A stretch of DNA of 64,000 nucleotides, taken from Sideroxyarcus sp. Lineage in GTDB: Bacteria > Pseudomonadota > Gammaproteobacteria > Burkholderiales > Gallionellaceae. The translations under genes were made by a program, and so were the position numbers. Numbering within the stretch: position 1 is the first letter of the stretch; every line of letters begins with the position of its first letter. Shown one piece after another: positions 4,575 through 11,430 of this stretch. The notes under the pieces were generated by a model. That model ran no database searches. It was not told the DNA's origin and saw only the letters and a program-made list of their open reading frames with translations. The stretch is from the NCBI GenBank assembly GCA_030652215.1, contig JAUSBC010000017.1:1-64000 (forward strand), given 5' to 3'.

Positions 4575-6098
4575 TCAGTGCAGTATCTCGACCACGCGGC
4601 TGGGCTTCAGGTTCGCATAGGAAGGCATCGCCATGCCGACCGTCGCACCGATGTAGGTCGGGTCCGCGACGACGTAACGCTGCCCCTGAAAGTCCACCGT
4701 GGCAAACTCCGCTTTCACCCGTTTGAGCGTCACGGCTGTGGTCATGTGCCCGGGATAGAGCAGGCCGACCGCCTTGATGCCAAGCAGTTCATGCGCCAGC
4801 CACGCGAACAGCACCGAGCGGTCTTCGCAGTCGTTATAGGGAAAGAACAGGGATTCTTCGACGAAGAAATATTTTTCGTAGCCGAACTGGTCCGCGTCGG
4901 TCTTGTAGGCGAACGCTTTTTGCACAAAGGCGAGCAGGAAATTCACCGCCTCTTCCTCGTCCATTTTCGCGGTATGTTTCTTCAGGTCGGCCAGCAGGTT
5001 GCCGCGTATCAGCGCGCTGCCGTCGGTATCAAAATACAGTTCGAATTCCGATTGCGGAAACGAGCCCATGTATTCCACCAGCCTGCGGTCGTAAGGCACG
5101 TTCAATGCAATCGCCTCGCCCCGGTAATCGAAACTCAGGGCGCGCTGCGCCGGCACAGTGCGCGTGAAGCCGGTCGCGGCGGACTGGATGTCGAGCGGTT
5201 TCAGCTTGTTCGGATAACTGGCTTCATAGGTATAGAAACTGCGTATGCTCTTGCCGCGATCCTCATCCAGCACCGCGTAGTAAGTCTGGCTCCCGACCGC
5301 CGTGAACTTGGTTGAATACACCTGCTGCTTGACGGCCACGAACAGATGCACGTCCGCGCCCGAATAGCCGAGTCTAACGTCGTAACCTGATTTTACGAGG
5401 AAGTACCACAACAGCAGGTTCTGCTCCGCCCTGCGTTCCGGCTGCAGCGCCTGCACGACACTGCGCCACAGCGTCACATGTCCCCAGTCGTCCAGTTTCA
5501 GCGTGCGTCGCGCTTCGTTGACCGCCTGTATCGTCGGTTCATAACGGCTACCACTCATCGTCGCCCAGAATGCGCTCATTGCCTCGGGCTTGGCCGCGCC
5601 GGACAGGCGGTACGTTTTCCACAGCGGATCGTAGACGAAGCGCACCGGGTTGCCGTAAAAAGCCAGTTCGACCGTGTTCGCGGCCACCGGCAGCGGTTTC
5701 GGTTGCGGGGGCGGCGGCGTCAATACAGGTTGAACGATGGGAGCGACCGGCGCAGGGGCTGGAGGTGCGACAGGCGGCGCGACGGGCTGCGGAGGTTTTG
5801 TGATTGGCCGTGCCGGCGCGGCGGGCGCCACCACCGGCACTTGCCGGGGCTTGGGTTCCTTGATGCGGACCTTGCCCTGAAAAGTCTCGAATTCGCGCCA
5901 CTGGCTTTTCAGGTATTCCGCAAACTCGCCATCCTGCTGTTCCTTGTATGCCTGGAATTCGGCTTTTTGCTGCTGCACTTCCTGCTGCTGCCGCTCCCGG
6001 AAGGATTTGAAATCATCTGCGGCGGCGCACGGCCCGCCCGGCAGAACGGCGCAAACCGACACAACCGCGAGCAACACGGGCACAGAACGCAGCCTCAT
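4575..6098 (-). CDS. Secreted protein with N-terminal coiled segment, Pro-rich linker and C-terminal transglutaminase-like domain
   Basis: Signal peptide MRLRSVPVLLAVVSVCAVLPGGPCAAAD; coil DDFKSFRERQQQEVQQQKAEFQAYKEQQDGEFAEY; linker rich in P/A; C-terminal FPYNDCEDRSVLFAWLAHELLGIKAVGLLYPGHMTTAV resembles a transglutaminase-like Cys/His/Asp region. Upstream ATG at 6116 also possible. Confidence 0.65.
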   Translation of the reverse strand: MRLRSVPVLLAVVSVCAVLPGGPCAAADDFKSFRERQQQEVQQQKAEFQAYKEQQDGEFAEYLKSQWREFETFQGKVRIKEPKPRQVPVVAPAAPARPITKPPQPVAPPVAPPAPAPVAPIVQPVLTPPPPQPKPLPVAANTVELAFYGNPVRFVYDPLWKTYRLSGAAKPEAMSAFWATMSGSRYEPTIQAVNEARRTLKLDDWGHVTLWRSVVQALQPERRAEQNLLLWYFLVKSGYDVRLGYSGADVHLFVAVKQQVYSTKFTAVGSQTYYAVLDEDRGKSIRSFYTYEASYPNKLKPLDIQSAATGFTRTVPAQRALSFDYRGEAIALNVPYDRRLVEYMGSFPQSEFELYFDTDGSALIRGNLLADLKKHTAKMDEEEAVNFLLAFVQKAFAYKTDADQFGYEKYFFVEESLFFPYNDCEDRSVLFAWLAHELLGIKAVGLLYPGHMTTAVTLKRVKAEFATVDFQGQRYVVADPTYIGATVGMAMPSYANLKPSRVVEILH

Positions 6099-6140
6099 TC
6101 CGGACGGGTGGCTCACGGATTATTCGGGCAGGGTCGCGCT

Positions 6141-6308
6141 TTACTTCTTCTCGGCTTCGGACTTCTGCTTTGCCACATCGGCAGCCATTTCTTCCTGGCT
6201 TTTTTTCGCGCGGTATTGCTGCCAATCGTCCTTGTCCTTGGCACTGGTGCAACCCGAAGCGGCAAACACGATTCCGGCAGACAACAACACTAGCAAAAAT
6301 TTATTCAT
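6141..6308 (-). CDS. 55-aa putative lipoprotein (not in ORF track)
   Basis: Minus strand ATG at 6308: MNKFLLVLLSAGIVFAASGCTSAKDKDDWQQYRAKKSQEEMAADVAKQKSEAEKK stop (6141-6143). Lipobox ASGC; tail resembles the C-terminus of the adjacent LPP20-like lipoprotein. Confidence 0.7.
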   Translation of the reverse strand: MNKFLLVLLSAGIVFAASGCTSAKDKDDWQQYRAKKSQEEMAADVAKQKSEAEKK

Positions 6309-6400
6309 GATGACCTCCAGTCGATATCAAAACAATTCTGAAAACATCCCGGTGCCGTGCGAACGCGCCGCCACGGCCCGGCTGCCGCATGTTTGCGCGA

Positions 6401-7036
6401 TCAGTTCTTGGGCTTGTCTGCCTCGGGGGAAGCCGCCACCGGCTCGACTTTCTGTTTGGCTATATCAGCCGCCAGTTCGTCCTGTCCCTTTTGTGCGCGG
6501 AATTGCTGCCAAGCAGCCTTGTCGTTGTTCTGGCTGGTTTTGATCGCCGCTTCGGTGATCTGTTGCGCGCTGGCCGCATCGAGTCCGACGAGGACATACA
6601 GCGTTCCATCCGGGCCGGTCACGCTTTTCAGCAACCGGGTTCCGACCAGCGTTTCATTGGTAATCTGTTTGGTCACCGAGCTGTTGACCTGATCGACCGT
6701 GGCCTGATCCGCCGCGCCAGTCGTTTCGGCATACTGCTTGATCATGTTGGTCACCTGGATGCGCATCATCTGGGCCAGTTGTACGCGCCCATCGGCTGCG
6801 GCCATCTGTTTTACGAAGGCGATACCCGCCTGTGATTTCGGTGCCGAGCCCACTGCCGTCACGGCTACACCGTCAACCGGCTCGTCGCAAACCCAACCCG
6901 GCGCCGCTTCCCTCGAATTCGGGAACATGCAGGATGGTACTGCGGCTACCGGCTCCACCTTGGCGGGAGCGCTCGCGCAGCCTGACAGGCCTATCAAAGC
7001 AACCGCAGAAAACGTGACGAAAAGTATGTTGCGCAT
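6401..7036 (-). CDS. LPP20-family-like lipoprotein
   Basis: Start at MRNILFVTFSAVALIGLSGCASAPAKVEP (lipobox LSGC); AAADGRVQLAQMMRIQVTNMIKQYAET... typical of LPP20-like proteins. Confidence 0.6.
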   Translation of the reverse strand: MRNILFVTFSAVALIGLSGCASAPAKVEPVAAVPSCMFPNSREAAPGWVCDEPVDGVAVTAVGSAPKSQAGIAFVKQMAAADGRVQLAQMMRIQVTNMIKQYAETTGAADQATVDQVNSSVTKQITNETLVGTRLLKSVTGPDGTLYVLVGLDAASAQQITEAAIKTSQNNDKAAWQQFRAQKGQDELAADIAKQKVEPVAASPEADKPKN

Positions 7037-7158
7037 GAAATATCTCCTTAGTTTAATAAACACCCACAAATACTGGCACGGCATTCGCGCCATCGAACCC
7101 TCAATCCATCAATCGGCAATCATGTCTTGCTGAAACTGCGCTGCCGCAAAGCACGCAA

Positions 7159-7929
7159 TCAGTCGTGCACTTCCTTGAGCCACTCCGCCGCATAGTTCTC
7201 CAGGCTTTCCATGTCCTTGCCGGACTCGTCGCTCAACGCGCGCTCGGTCACCACATTCCCGTCGAACGTTGCCATCCTGTCGGCACCCAGCGCGAATTCG
7301 CGCTTGAATTCGATGAACTCGCGTTGCGTTTTAGCCTTGTACTCGGAGAAGTTGCGCTTCTCTTCGGCGATGGCATCGCTCGCTTCTTTTTTGAATGCCT
7401 CGAATTCGTCTTCCTGCGTTTGCCGGTGTATCTCGTACGCCTCGCCCGGACTCGTGACGCTCACCAGACCCTTGCGCATCCCGATCTCCTTGCGCTCCGG
7501 CAAGTCGGCAACCAGGAAGCGGGTGCCGCGCACGCCTATGGTCGCCGTGGCGGTCTTGACGCCCACGGGGCGTTGCGAACCCTGTATCGCATTCAGCGCG
7601 TAATAAATCATCCCCGTTACATGGCGAAATATACCCGCGTAATCGCCGGACTTGTCGACTTCGATCTTGCTGTTCTTCTCGACCACGATATATCCAACAT
7701 CGCCGACCTTGACCACGGCCCGGCCATTCGGCCCGGTGACCAGATAGTGGCGCGCGGGAAGTACGCTCTTGGTGAAAACCTTGCGCGACGGCTGGTCCTG
7801 CTGTGTGATCGCAACATCGCCCTCGGCTCTGACGACCTCTATCGCTTCGCCGGCCAAACACCCGCCGGCGGCCAGGCTGCCGAACAGGCCCGCCGCAAGT
7901 ACCAAAATCGAACTGTGGATACGCATCAT
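7159..7929 (-). CDS. FecR-domain secreted protein with C-terminal coiled segment
   Basis: Signal peptide; NGRAVVKVGDVGYIVVEKNSKIEVDKS...VGVKTATATIGVRGTRFLV is FecR-like; C-terminal EDEFEAFKKEASDAIAEEKRNFSEYKAKTQREFIEF. Confidence 0.7.
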   Translation of the reverse strand: MMRIHSSILVLAAGLFGSLAAGGCLAGEAIEVVRAEGDVAITQQDQPSRKVFTKSVLPARHYLVTGPNGRAVVKVGDVGYIVVEKNSKIEVDKSGDYAGIFRHVTGMIYYALNAIQGSQRPVGVKTATATIGVRGTRFLVADLPERKEIGMRKGLVSVTSPGEAYEIHRQTQEDEFEAFKKEASDAIAEEKRNFSEYKAKTQREFIEFKREFALGADRMATFDGNVVTERALSDESGKDMESLENYAAEWLKEVHD

Positions 7930-8153: not shown

Positions 8154-9641
8154 CTAGTTCAACTCGTGGCGCAGGAATCTGGAAAATTTTTCGCGCCAGC
8201 GTTTGATCACGTTGATGCCCAGCACGTCCATGACCATTTCCTGCGAAATCGGATTCCACCCCGTCGTGCCCTGGAAGCGATCCGCAAAAACGGGCGTGCC
8301 GTTCTCCAGCAGGAAAGTGGTCATCCCGCCCTCGAACTGGTATTCGCGGCCGCGGCCCTGCGGGTCCCGGTCCGCGCGGTTGCGCATCTTCCCCAGCGCC
8401 ACCACGCCCAGCACCAGCTTGCCCGGTTCGCCCATGCTTTTCGGAATCTCGCCCTTCTGTAACGCCTGCAGTTGCGGCGCGGAGAGCGCTTGCATCCTGA
8501 CCTCGACATCCGCGCCCAGCGGGCGGATGACATTGTTCAGGCTGTCGCACGCCTTGTTCCATGCGCCCCGGTCGGTGCCGGAATTGAAATAGCAGACGAG
8601 CGTGGTGGCGCGGCCCTCGAAATACTGGCGCCACAATGTCTTTTCCATTTCCTCGGCCGAGCAGACCAGCGTCTCGGCTTTTTTCCGGGCGATCTCGCGC
8701 CGGTCGTTGAGTTGTTTCGAGTCTGCGGCCTGCTGAAAATAGCTCTTGGCGCCGCAGGCGCTTTTCCTCAATTCTTCGACCTCGCCCAGCTTGAACAGGA
8801 TATCCCCGGGCTCGAATACCGGCGGCAAGCCGCCGCCATGCTTCGCCAGCAAACCCTTGTAGGCGCCGGCCGCAGCGACGAGCGTCCTGGATTTTTCTAC
8901 CTCACCGGTCTGCCCCGAGGCCTGGTTGACCTGCAAGTCGGCCGCAGCCAGTGCCGCTTTGGCCTGGTCCAGATCGTCGCGCGTCTGTTGCAGATCGCGT
9001 TTGAAACCGTTCAACAGCCGTGCATAGTGCTCCGCCGAACTGGCCTCGGGAATGAATTCCAGCGCAATGCGCGGCAACACTTCCAGCGCGGCATCCACGG
9101 CGGACAAGCGGCCGTTCAGGGACGCGCCTTCATTTTGCACTACCGCCAATTGCTCGTTCAGCACGCCGAACAGCGTTTTGGCCAGCCCTTCGCGCTTGCC
9201 CTGCTCCACGTGTTTTTTAGAGACTCTTGCGCGCAGCCAGATCGAACAGGTTTTGGGGTCTTCCCAGGTTGCGACGGATTCGACGTTGCGCAATGACGCA
9301 TTCGTCGATGTCTTGGTGATGGATTGCAAACTGGAATCGGTGAGTTCCGTCCCGGCAACGTTGCGGCTCGACTGCTCCAGCACCAGGGAATTTTTGACGG
9401 AAACCTCGATCATCTCGGAAAGGTTTTTCAGCGCATTCTGTTTGGCCGTCGCAATGCGCTCGGCCAGCGGGGCCTGCGGATCGTCCGATACGCCTGCGGC
9501 AAACAAATGCTCTTCGGTGACGGATTCCGGGCTATCCACCCAGTCGGGCCGGGGTCCGCTGCCGGAACATTGCACGGCGAATGCCGTCGAGGAAAACCAC
9601 AACCCGGCGAAGGCGGCAAATAATGCAGCGCGAAGCATCAT
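8154..9641 (-). CDS. Secreted LPP20-like domain protein with long helical region
   Basis: MMLRAALFAAFAGLWFSSTAFAVQCSGSGPRPDWVDSPESVTEEHLFAAGVSDDPQAPLAERIATAKQNALKNLSEMIEVSVKN; LPP20-type 'PxW.......A.G......A...A...A..L' pattern. ORF-track start at 9704 lacks a signal peptide. Confidence 0.55.
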   Translation of the reverse strand: MMLRAALFAAFAGLWFSSTAFAVQCSGSGPRPDWVDSPESVTEEHLFAAGVSDDPQAPLAERIATAKQNALKNLSEMIEVSVKNSLVLEQSSRNVAGTELTDSSLQSITKTSTNASLRNVESVATWEDPKTCSIWLRARVSKKHVEQGKREGLAKTLFGVLNEQLAVVQNEGASLNGRLSAVDAALEVLPRIALEFIPEASSAEHYARLLNGFKRDLQQTRDDLDQAKAALAAADLQVNQASGQTGEVEKSRTLVAAAGAYKGLLAKHGGGLPPVFEPGDILFKLGEVEELRKSACGAKSYFQQAADSKQLNDRREIARKKAETLVCSAEEMEKTLWRQYFEGRATTLVCYFNSGTDRGAWNKACDSLNNVIRPLGADVEVRMQALSAPQLQALQKGEIPKSMGEPGKLVLGVVALGKMRNRADRDPQGRGREYQFEGGMTTFLLENGTPVFADRFQGTTGWNPISQEMVMDVLGINVIKRWREKFSRFLRHELN

Positions 9642-9690
9642 GAGTATCTGTCCTTGGAAATCCCGCACATCTGTCTGAACCGGCGCGACA

Positions 9691-10800
9691 CTAATCGCGC
9701 GCAATCTGATAATAAAGGTGGCGCGTGCCTTCGGAAACCTGCAGATAGTCGTTTCCGCCGGAACGCAGATGCGTCAGCAACGGTTTGTCGAACGAGTCTT
9801 CGAAGTACACCCTGCCGAGTTCCACGCCGCGCTCCGTATCGGCGAAGATCAGATGGCTTTGCGAAACGGCGGCGACGTAGCGCCATGTTTGCAGGAACCT
9901 GCAATCCGTGATTTTCGATCCGCCCTTCTGATAACGCTGATCCTTGATCGAAACGTCGAAATGCTCGACTTCATTTCTGGCATCCATGTCCACGATGTGC
10001 AACTGGGATGCATAGGTGCGCGTCGGTCTGCCGAAGGCGAACGTCGTATTCATGATATAGGTGCCAATGGCGCCCATGCGGCCATCGGTGGAACCCCTCA
10101 CGCAGGTGGGCTCTTCGGAGATCGAATCGTCCGACTTCAATTTCGCGTATTTCACCATGTCGTCATCTACGGCGCGCAGCGGCGGCGGCACGACCTCGAC
10201 CGCATCGGCGGCCAGTTCGGCGATGTTTTTCAGCGAGAATTTGACGAGTCTGGGATTGGTGACATCCATCACTTGCAGGCCGAATTTTTCCACCGCAATA
10301 TCGACCGCGCGCTGGATCGCATTATTCACTGCGGCCGACTCCGTCAAGCCGTCGGAGGGCGGCATGCCCTTGGTGCCCATGGGCGCAGAAGCCGACGATT
10401 TGATTTTTGCGTCTTCGCCGATAAAGCGGATATCGGCGACCGCAGTGGCCGTGAAGATGGAAGACAGCCCGCTGGTTTTGCCTACACCCAGATAGACTCT
10501 ATATATCCCGGATATCTGGAAACGCCCGGCATTCTCGACGAAATCTTCGGCTGTAATCAGCGCGCCCGGGTCGCCCAAACGGGCCCAGGATTTTTTGAGT
10601 TCTTCGGCTTTTTTCTGATCGAGGACGATCACGCCGTTGTCGCTGAGCAGTTGCTCCATACGCGTCTGCGCAACGCGCAAATACTGCTTGGCGGCGGCAT
10701 TCTGTCCGTAAACGACGATTGCGACTTTCTCCTGCTCGGCACTCGCCGGCAAAACGCTAAAACACAACACCAGAATCAATGCACGGAATAGCAATTTCAT
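9691..10800 (-). CDS. Secreted protein with N-terminal CsgG/FlgT-like domain, C-terminal beta-rich region
   Basis: Signal peptide MKLLFRALILVLCFSVLPASA; RMEQLLSDNGVIVLDQKKAEELKKSW... AVNNAIQRAVDIAVEKFGLQV resembles CsgG/LPP20-neighbour proteins; family call tentative. Confidence 0.45.
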   Translation of the reverse strand: MKLLFRALILVLCFSVLPASAEQEKVAIVVYGQNAAAKQYLRVAQTRMEQLLSDNGVIVLDQKKAEELKKSWARLGDPGALITAEDFVENAGRFQISGIYRVYLGVGKTSGLSSIFTATAVADIRFIGEDAKIKSSASAPMGTKGMPPSDGLTESAAVNNAIQRAVDIAVEKFGLQVMDVTNPRLVKFSLKNIAELAADAVEVVPPPLRAVDDDMVKYAKLKSDDSISEEPTCVRGSTDGRMGAIGTYIMNTTFAFGRPTRTYASQLHIVDMDARNEVEHFDVSIKDQRYQKGGSKITDCRFLQTWRYVAAVSQSHLIFADTERGVELGRVYFEDSFDKPLLTHLRSGGNDYLQVSEGTRHLYYQIARD

Positions 10801-10866: not shown

Positions 10867-11430
10867 TTAGTATCTGGCAGTCAGGCCGAAAAGCACCCGT
10901 GACCCGGATTGGGTCATGTCGAAATCCGACGAAGTCAGCGTGTTATAGAAAAGTTGCAGCGCGGCATCCGCCGAAACTTCTTCCGTAATGAAGTAGGACA
11001 CGCCGCCACCGCCCACCATACCCACGCCACCAAAGCTGGTCGATGTACCGGCCGAAGTGTTATCCACCGCAACCACGTTGAAGCCTCCCTGCACGAACGG
11101 CACCCATTGCGATTTTGCCGAATCGGCGAAGTAATACTTCACGCCCACGCCCACTGCCGTACCGAGCGACTCGCTGCTACCCGAGTCGTTGCCGAATACG
11201 GACAGATTCACGCGGCCAACCAGCCTGGAAGTGAAATAGCGACCGACATCAACGTTAATGAACGTATTTGTCGAGTCCGAGGATGAAGTACCAAACCCCG
11301 TATCGACATCGCTCGTCGTACTCTCAATACTCCCTGCAACAGACATTTCCCACATACCCTTTTCCGCCATTGCATAAGGGGCGGCCAACATGGATGCCGC
11401 AATAATTGCCAATCGAATTGTGTTCTTCAT
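10867..11430 (-). CDS. Small outer-membrane beta-barrel protein
   Basis: Signal peptide MKNTIRLAIIAASMLAAPYAMA; alternating-hydrophobic strands; C-terminal aromatic (..FGLTARY). Confidence 0.65.
   Translation of the reverse strand: MKNTIRLAIIAASMLAAPYAMAEKGMWEMSVAGSIESTTSDVDTGFGTSSSDSTNTFINVDVGRYFTSRLVGRVNLSVFGNDSGSSESLGTAVGVGVKYYFADSAKSQWVPFVQGGFNVVAVDNTSAGTSTSFGGVGMVGGGGVSYFITEEVSADAALQLFYNTLTSSDFDMTQSGSRVLFGLTARY

Follow-up and report, generated by a model that had tools for sequence, protein, structure and literature searches.

A segment with a common aromatic register in a transglutaminase-like protein, its FecR-domain neighbour and cell-envelope enzymes from related loci

Two genes from one gene run of a Sideroxyarcus sp. 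(Gallionellaceae) encode a transglutaminase-like secreted protein (Tgl) and a FecR-domain secreted protein which have in common a gap-free segment of 36 columns, found at the mature N-terminus of the former and in the C-terminal part of the latter. That this segment is a homologous protein module is well supported by sequence and profile comparison. FecR and Tgl have their register in common with some MltC-like transglycosylases, and the genes are grouped together. We give a probability of about one half to the proposal that the module is a docking helix, by which cell-wall enzymes would be gathered on an assembly in the envelope. The window analysed is a stretch of 64,000 nucleotides (contig JAUSBC010000017.1, positions 1 to 64,000); coordinates given without a locus name refer to it, and the features they describe lie on the reverse strand (-).

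The segment in Tgl and FecR

Tgl (4575-6116) has 513 residues if read from a GTG start, or 507 from the ATG at 6098, and is laid out as a signal peptide, the module helix, FQGKVRIKEPKP, a Pro-rich linker and a catalytic domain with Cys, His and Asp. Across 39 sequences, C424 and H451 are invariant and D479 nearly so (numbering from the ATG); the three residues are thus conserved and in the order typical of a transglutaminase-like cysteine peptidase. Searches of Tgl against Pfam and NCBIfam returned no match at E-values up to 1. Its AlphaFold2 model (pLDDT 85.6) contains an unbroken helix across the segment at a pLDDT of about 90, so that the Tgl segment is predicted to be helical; after it come the Pro-rich linker, modelled with low confidence, and the catalytic domain, modelled confidently. 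The closest PDB folds are those of LapG and are weak matches (E 5e-3 to 0.14); Foldseek assigned a probability of 1.00, but with an E-value of 5e-3 and a TM-score of 0.49 by target length. Relatives of Tgl were found at 45 loci in one scan, comprising Gallionellaceae/Nitrosomonadales-like genomes (61-91% identity), one member of the Arcobacteraceae and many Bacteroidales (about 22-31%).

The FecR-domain protein (7159-7929; 256 residues) belongs to PF04773, scoring 35.8 bits where the cut-off is 24 (E 1.1e-8). The beta domain of its AlphaFold2 model is of fair quality and matches FecR-type anti-sigma and PupR folds. The module segment is of low confidence in this model, and we therefore infer its helicity from homology. 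The protein carries a signal peptide only and does not qualify as an anti-sigma regulator proper; no sigma gene was found in the inspected neighbourhood, which extended to 14 kb in the window, while a relative in genome G251 does have a sigma-like gene close by. We also observed a weak NCBIfam match of the N-terminal beta domain to the LapA retention module (E 0.036), as well as a match of the model to the surface-protein anchoring domain 5ix9 (TM-score 0.74 by target length, E 0.02).

The module covers 50 residues in Tgl (5868-6017; DDFKSF...FQGKV), where it is conserved in aligned orthologues and has aromatic residues at 0, 3, 18, 21, 29, 32, 40 and 43 and a valine at 11. In FecR it covers 54 residues (7249-7410; DEFEAFKK...FDGNVV), the first 36 of which align with Tgl without gaps, and it sits between folded parts of the protein rather than at a terminus. 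A sequence-only reading of this DNA had drawn attention to two peptides, residues 34-68 of Tgl (5913-6017) and 174-208 of FecR (7306-7410). Both are where it placed them and the spacing it listed, counted from the first F, is correct throughout, although it overlooked that position 12 (V/I) matches as well. It had also described an F-x-G-x-V motif trailing both segments. The motif is present in both proteins and roughly conserved as [ST][FY]xG[KN], but it falls outside the gap-free stretch because it lies about three residues further along in FecR.

The two peptides share 10 of 35 residues. Aligned without gaps, they score 65 by BLOSUM62 at offset 0 and at most 30 at all other offsets up to 22, and a score of 65 was reached by none of 200,000 residue shuffles and none of 5,000 best-local shuffles. 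In a search of its own genome the single pair has an E-value of 1.2, yet it is the sole second match there; taken alone, this pairwise similarity is suggestive only. Profile-profile comparison including orthologues (hhalign) gave E-values of 7e-9 and 8.6e-9 over 36 gap-free columns, and no column shuffle out of 300 attained the observed score. Nor was the observed 40.95 reached in 300 shuffles restricted to the non-aromatic columns (maximum 36.3). The match consequently exceeds a mere common aromatic stripe, as no shuffle with the aromatic columns held fixed equalled it.

The skeleton of the segment may be written as F0, Y/F3, mostly V/I/M11, F18, Y21, F29 and Y/F32; column 10 holds a small residue. 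The aromatic columns common to Tgl and FecR (0, 3, 18, 21, 29 and 32) are aromatic in 16 of 16 sequences drawn from FecR, Tgl and MltC-like proteins, while column 11, usually V/I/M, is hydrophobic in 75% of them. The step from column 11 to column 18 spans 7 residues and interrupts the 11-residue repeat at one and the same place in all three families. Such a hydrophobic stripe with 11/7 spacing is that of a coiled coil or hendecad helix. A Pfam scan of the segments alone identified no known family, and PDB sequence searches with the module and with Tgl returned nothing usable.

Further carriers and gene neighbourhood

The presence of the segment at the N-terminus of one protein and towards the C-terminus of its neighbour had been taken to indicate a transposed module. 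A shared module placed in this way is supported: it is conserved in both families, is specific to the locus in whole-genome searches, and also begins the proteins of a third enzyme family. In genome G020, which lacks Tgl, FecR adjoins a 430-residue ORF for an MltC-like lytic transglycosylase (SLT 5e-23, Mltc_N 4e-17) with the module at its mature N-terminus and in the same register. The other MltC of G020 and the MltC of G015 are lipoproteins (with a lipobox in the G020 paralogue) which have no such module. The MltC-type pair of G020 (L175:451-1758 and L145:7449-8738) comprises one lipoprotein without the module and one protein in which the module is combined with a plain signal peptide. Module-bearing Tgl and MltC-like genes also adjoin in three gammaproteobacteria (G203, G191 and G235) and in an Arcobacteraceae locus, L018, where the 11-residue repeats are uniform; uniform versions of this kind occur in Bacteroidales and Campylobacterota. 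In mature Tgl and MltC-like proteins the module stands at the very N-terminus. At L008:6875-7897 a protein with an FGE-sulfatase domain, encoded between FecR and Tgl, has a shorter version of the module at its start. The description of the carriers as two unrelated neighbours is too narrow, since MltC-like transglycosylases and an FGE-like protein carry the module too.

Searches with a profile of the FecR segment across 61 whole genomes of relatives yielded, below an E-value of 0.15, only two kinds of non-FecR match, namely Tgl (12 genomes) and the MltC-like ORF of G020. A combined profile of all families matched only FecR, Tgl and the G020 ORF in 34 genomes of the genus, and any module match at E ≤ 0.02 was confined to 6 of 399 genomes of the phylum. 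Full-length searches of the 34 genus genomes found FecR in 15 and Tgl in 13; 12 genomes have the two together, a co-occurrence with a Fisher p of 9e-6, uncorrected for phylogeny. In the loci of close relatives FecR and Tgl belong to one gene run and both segments are conserved. Module-bearing FecR proteins are also present in G251, G109 and G492, and in G251 FecR and Tgl are on separate contigs. Neither Tgl nor any other module carrier was found in G015, a genome of 100% completeness whose FecR has the module; its locus (L146) comprises FecR and LPP20 without Tgl and is followed directly by the flanking NADH-dehydrogenase-like genes. By the terms of the sequence-only reading, its proposal would fall if profile searches showed the pattern to be a generic coiled coil that is not enriched here. 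These searches of whole genomes did not give that outcome, since matches and co-occurrence alike point to the locus.

Between FecR and Tgl lies the gene for an LPP20-family lipoprotein (6401-7093; 230 residues; PF02169, E 5e-10). It has a conserved tail, DKAAWQQFRAQKGQDELAADIAKQK (6449-6523), beyond which a short extension ends the protein, and which is also present in betaproteobacterial, gammaproteobacterial and campylobacterotal LPP20 proteins. A copy of this tail (6162-6236; 17 of 25 residues identical) occurs in a small lipoprotein of 55 residues (6141-6308) which contains little else besides a signal peptide with a lipobox Cys and has syntenic homologues in four loci (L003, L009, L013 and L014); its gene is smaller than the usual ORF size cut-off. 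The tail opens with [WF]xx[FY][KR], resembling the module, and was considered as another copy of it. Module profiles matched the small lipoprotein only at E-values of about 9-18, and we keep the two apart for want of a significant profile relation. The same gene run encodes a second LPP20-domain protein (8154-9704; 516 residues; PF02169, E 6e-6), syntenic in L003, L009, L013, L014 and L146. A secreted protein of 369 residues with no Pfam match (9691-10800) has conserved synteny with LPP20, FecR and Tgl, and an outer-membrane beta-barrel protein (10867-11430; 187 residues; PF13505, E 1.4e-7) is syntenic as well. PADLOC identified no defence family.

Possible roles of the module

If the module is a docking handle, it would form a straight, highly charged helix in which aromatic pairs recur at intervals of about 11 residues, except for a single step of 7. 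In the periplasm such helices may pair with each other or share a single partner, and may thereby hold cell-wall enzymes at one envelope assembly made up of the FecR protein and LPP20 lipoproteins. The sequence-only reading had further suggested hetero-oligomerisation, which the module may serve. The Pro-rich linker of Tgl would give the catalytic domain reach beyond the dock. In the MltC-like enzyme the module occupies the position at which the usual MltC has its lipid anchor. Because cell-envelope enzymes other than Tgl also have the segment at related loci, a shared handle is probable. An exchange of partners, as suggested by G020, where a module-bearing MltC-like enzyme stands beside FecR and Tgl is absent, also argues for docking, as do the homology of the segments, their specificity to the locus, the co-occurrence of FecR and Tgl, the adjoining Tgl and MltC-like genes of the gammaproteobacteria and the helix predicted in Tgl. 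Several observations count against it: hydrophobic residues are sparse in the segment and thin for a classical coiled-coil core; AlphaFold2 builds no confident helix for the FecR segment; FecR and Tgl are on separate contigs in G251; and the module-bearing FecR of G015 has no further carrier in its genome.

The main rival is that the helices share a non-protein target, each lying as an amphipathic 11-residue-repeat helix on the membrane or cell wall and serving as a lipid-free anchor. An 11-residue periodicity is typical of helices which lie on membranes, and both the extreme N-terminal placement in mature Tgl and MltC-like proteins and the coincidence with the canonical MltC lipid anchor are what an anchor would lead one to expect. 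All four segments tested, however, have a negative mean hydrophobicity, 37-51% of their residues are charged and the hydrophobic moment of the Tgl segment is low (0.18), which speaks against a membrane, and the internal position of the module in FecR is awkward for an anchor. We regard this explanation as rather unlikely.

A still smaller chance attaches to an ordinary coiled coil, in which the likeness would be the convergence of two charged helices. The coiled-coil-like composition, the modest E-value of the single pair and the simple 11-residue repeats of the Bacteroidales and campylobacterotal versions are consistent with convergence. Against it stand an 11-7-11 break, a small residue at 10 and V/I/M at 11 that recur from family to family, the shuffles with fixed aromatics, and genome-wide searches which match essentially this locus only. 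Least probable of all is a pair akin to LapG and LapA, in which a LapG-like Tgl acts on FecR as substrate or regulator and the shared helix joins them: LapG is the best fold match of Tgl, and the 5ix9 and LapA retention module matches of FecR fit, but every one of these matches is weak, PF04773 and PupR-type folds explain FecR better, and the FecR of G020 adjoins an MltC-like enzyme instead of Tgl.

Should the docking reading be correct, the module would show which proteins belong to a so far unstudied complex of the envelope in Pseudomonadota, Campylobacterota and Bacteroidales and provide a sequence tag for further members, and it would become possible to test what the uncharacterised proteins of the LPP20, FecR and transglutaminase-like kinds do. 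A broader form of the docking reading, which we hold to be possible though doubtful, is that an undescribed family of docking helices constitutes an exchangeable envelope interface, through which Tgl-like, MltC-like, FGE-like and FecR proteins attach to a single LPP20-containing assembly, with the helix in place of the usual lipid anchor.

Comparison with known systems

Our search of the literature for LPP20, FecR, transglutaminase and transglycosylase together found no description of such a system, and broader searches on coiled coils and hendecads added nothing. The LapG cysteine protease is the nearest solved fold to Tgl, if a weak one; Tgl differs in having no Pfam or PDB sequence match and in its N-terminal module and Pro-rich linker. 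MltC shares its domains (Mltc_N and SLT) with the third module carrier, whereas the canonical MltC paralogues examined are lipoproteins without the module. Hendecad coiled coils, exemplified by the peripheral stalks of rotary ATPases, have the 11-residue periodicity in common with the module. In the module, by contrast, each repeat retains only the aromatic pair, the third core position being polar or small, and one heptad step interrupts the series.

Docking helices encoded within an operon offer a works-like comparison only. The docking domains of polyketide synthases are short terminal helices by which the separate enzymes of one cluster find each other. The module helices differ from these in being homologous to one another, secreted, built on an aromatic 11-7-11 register and carried by envelope proteins, and their pairing is presumed. 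Docking helices between operon partners are therefore known as such, and the module looks like an undescribed family of them.
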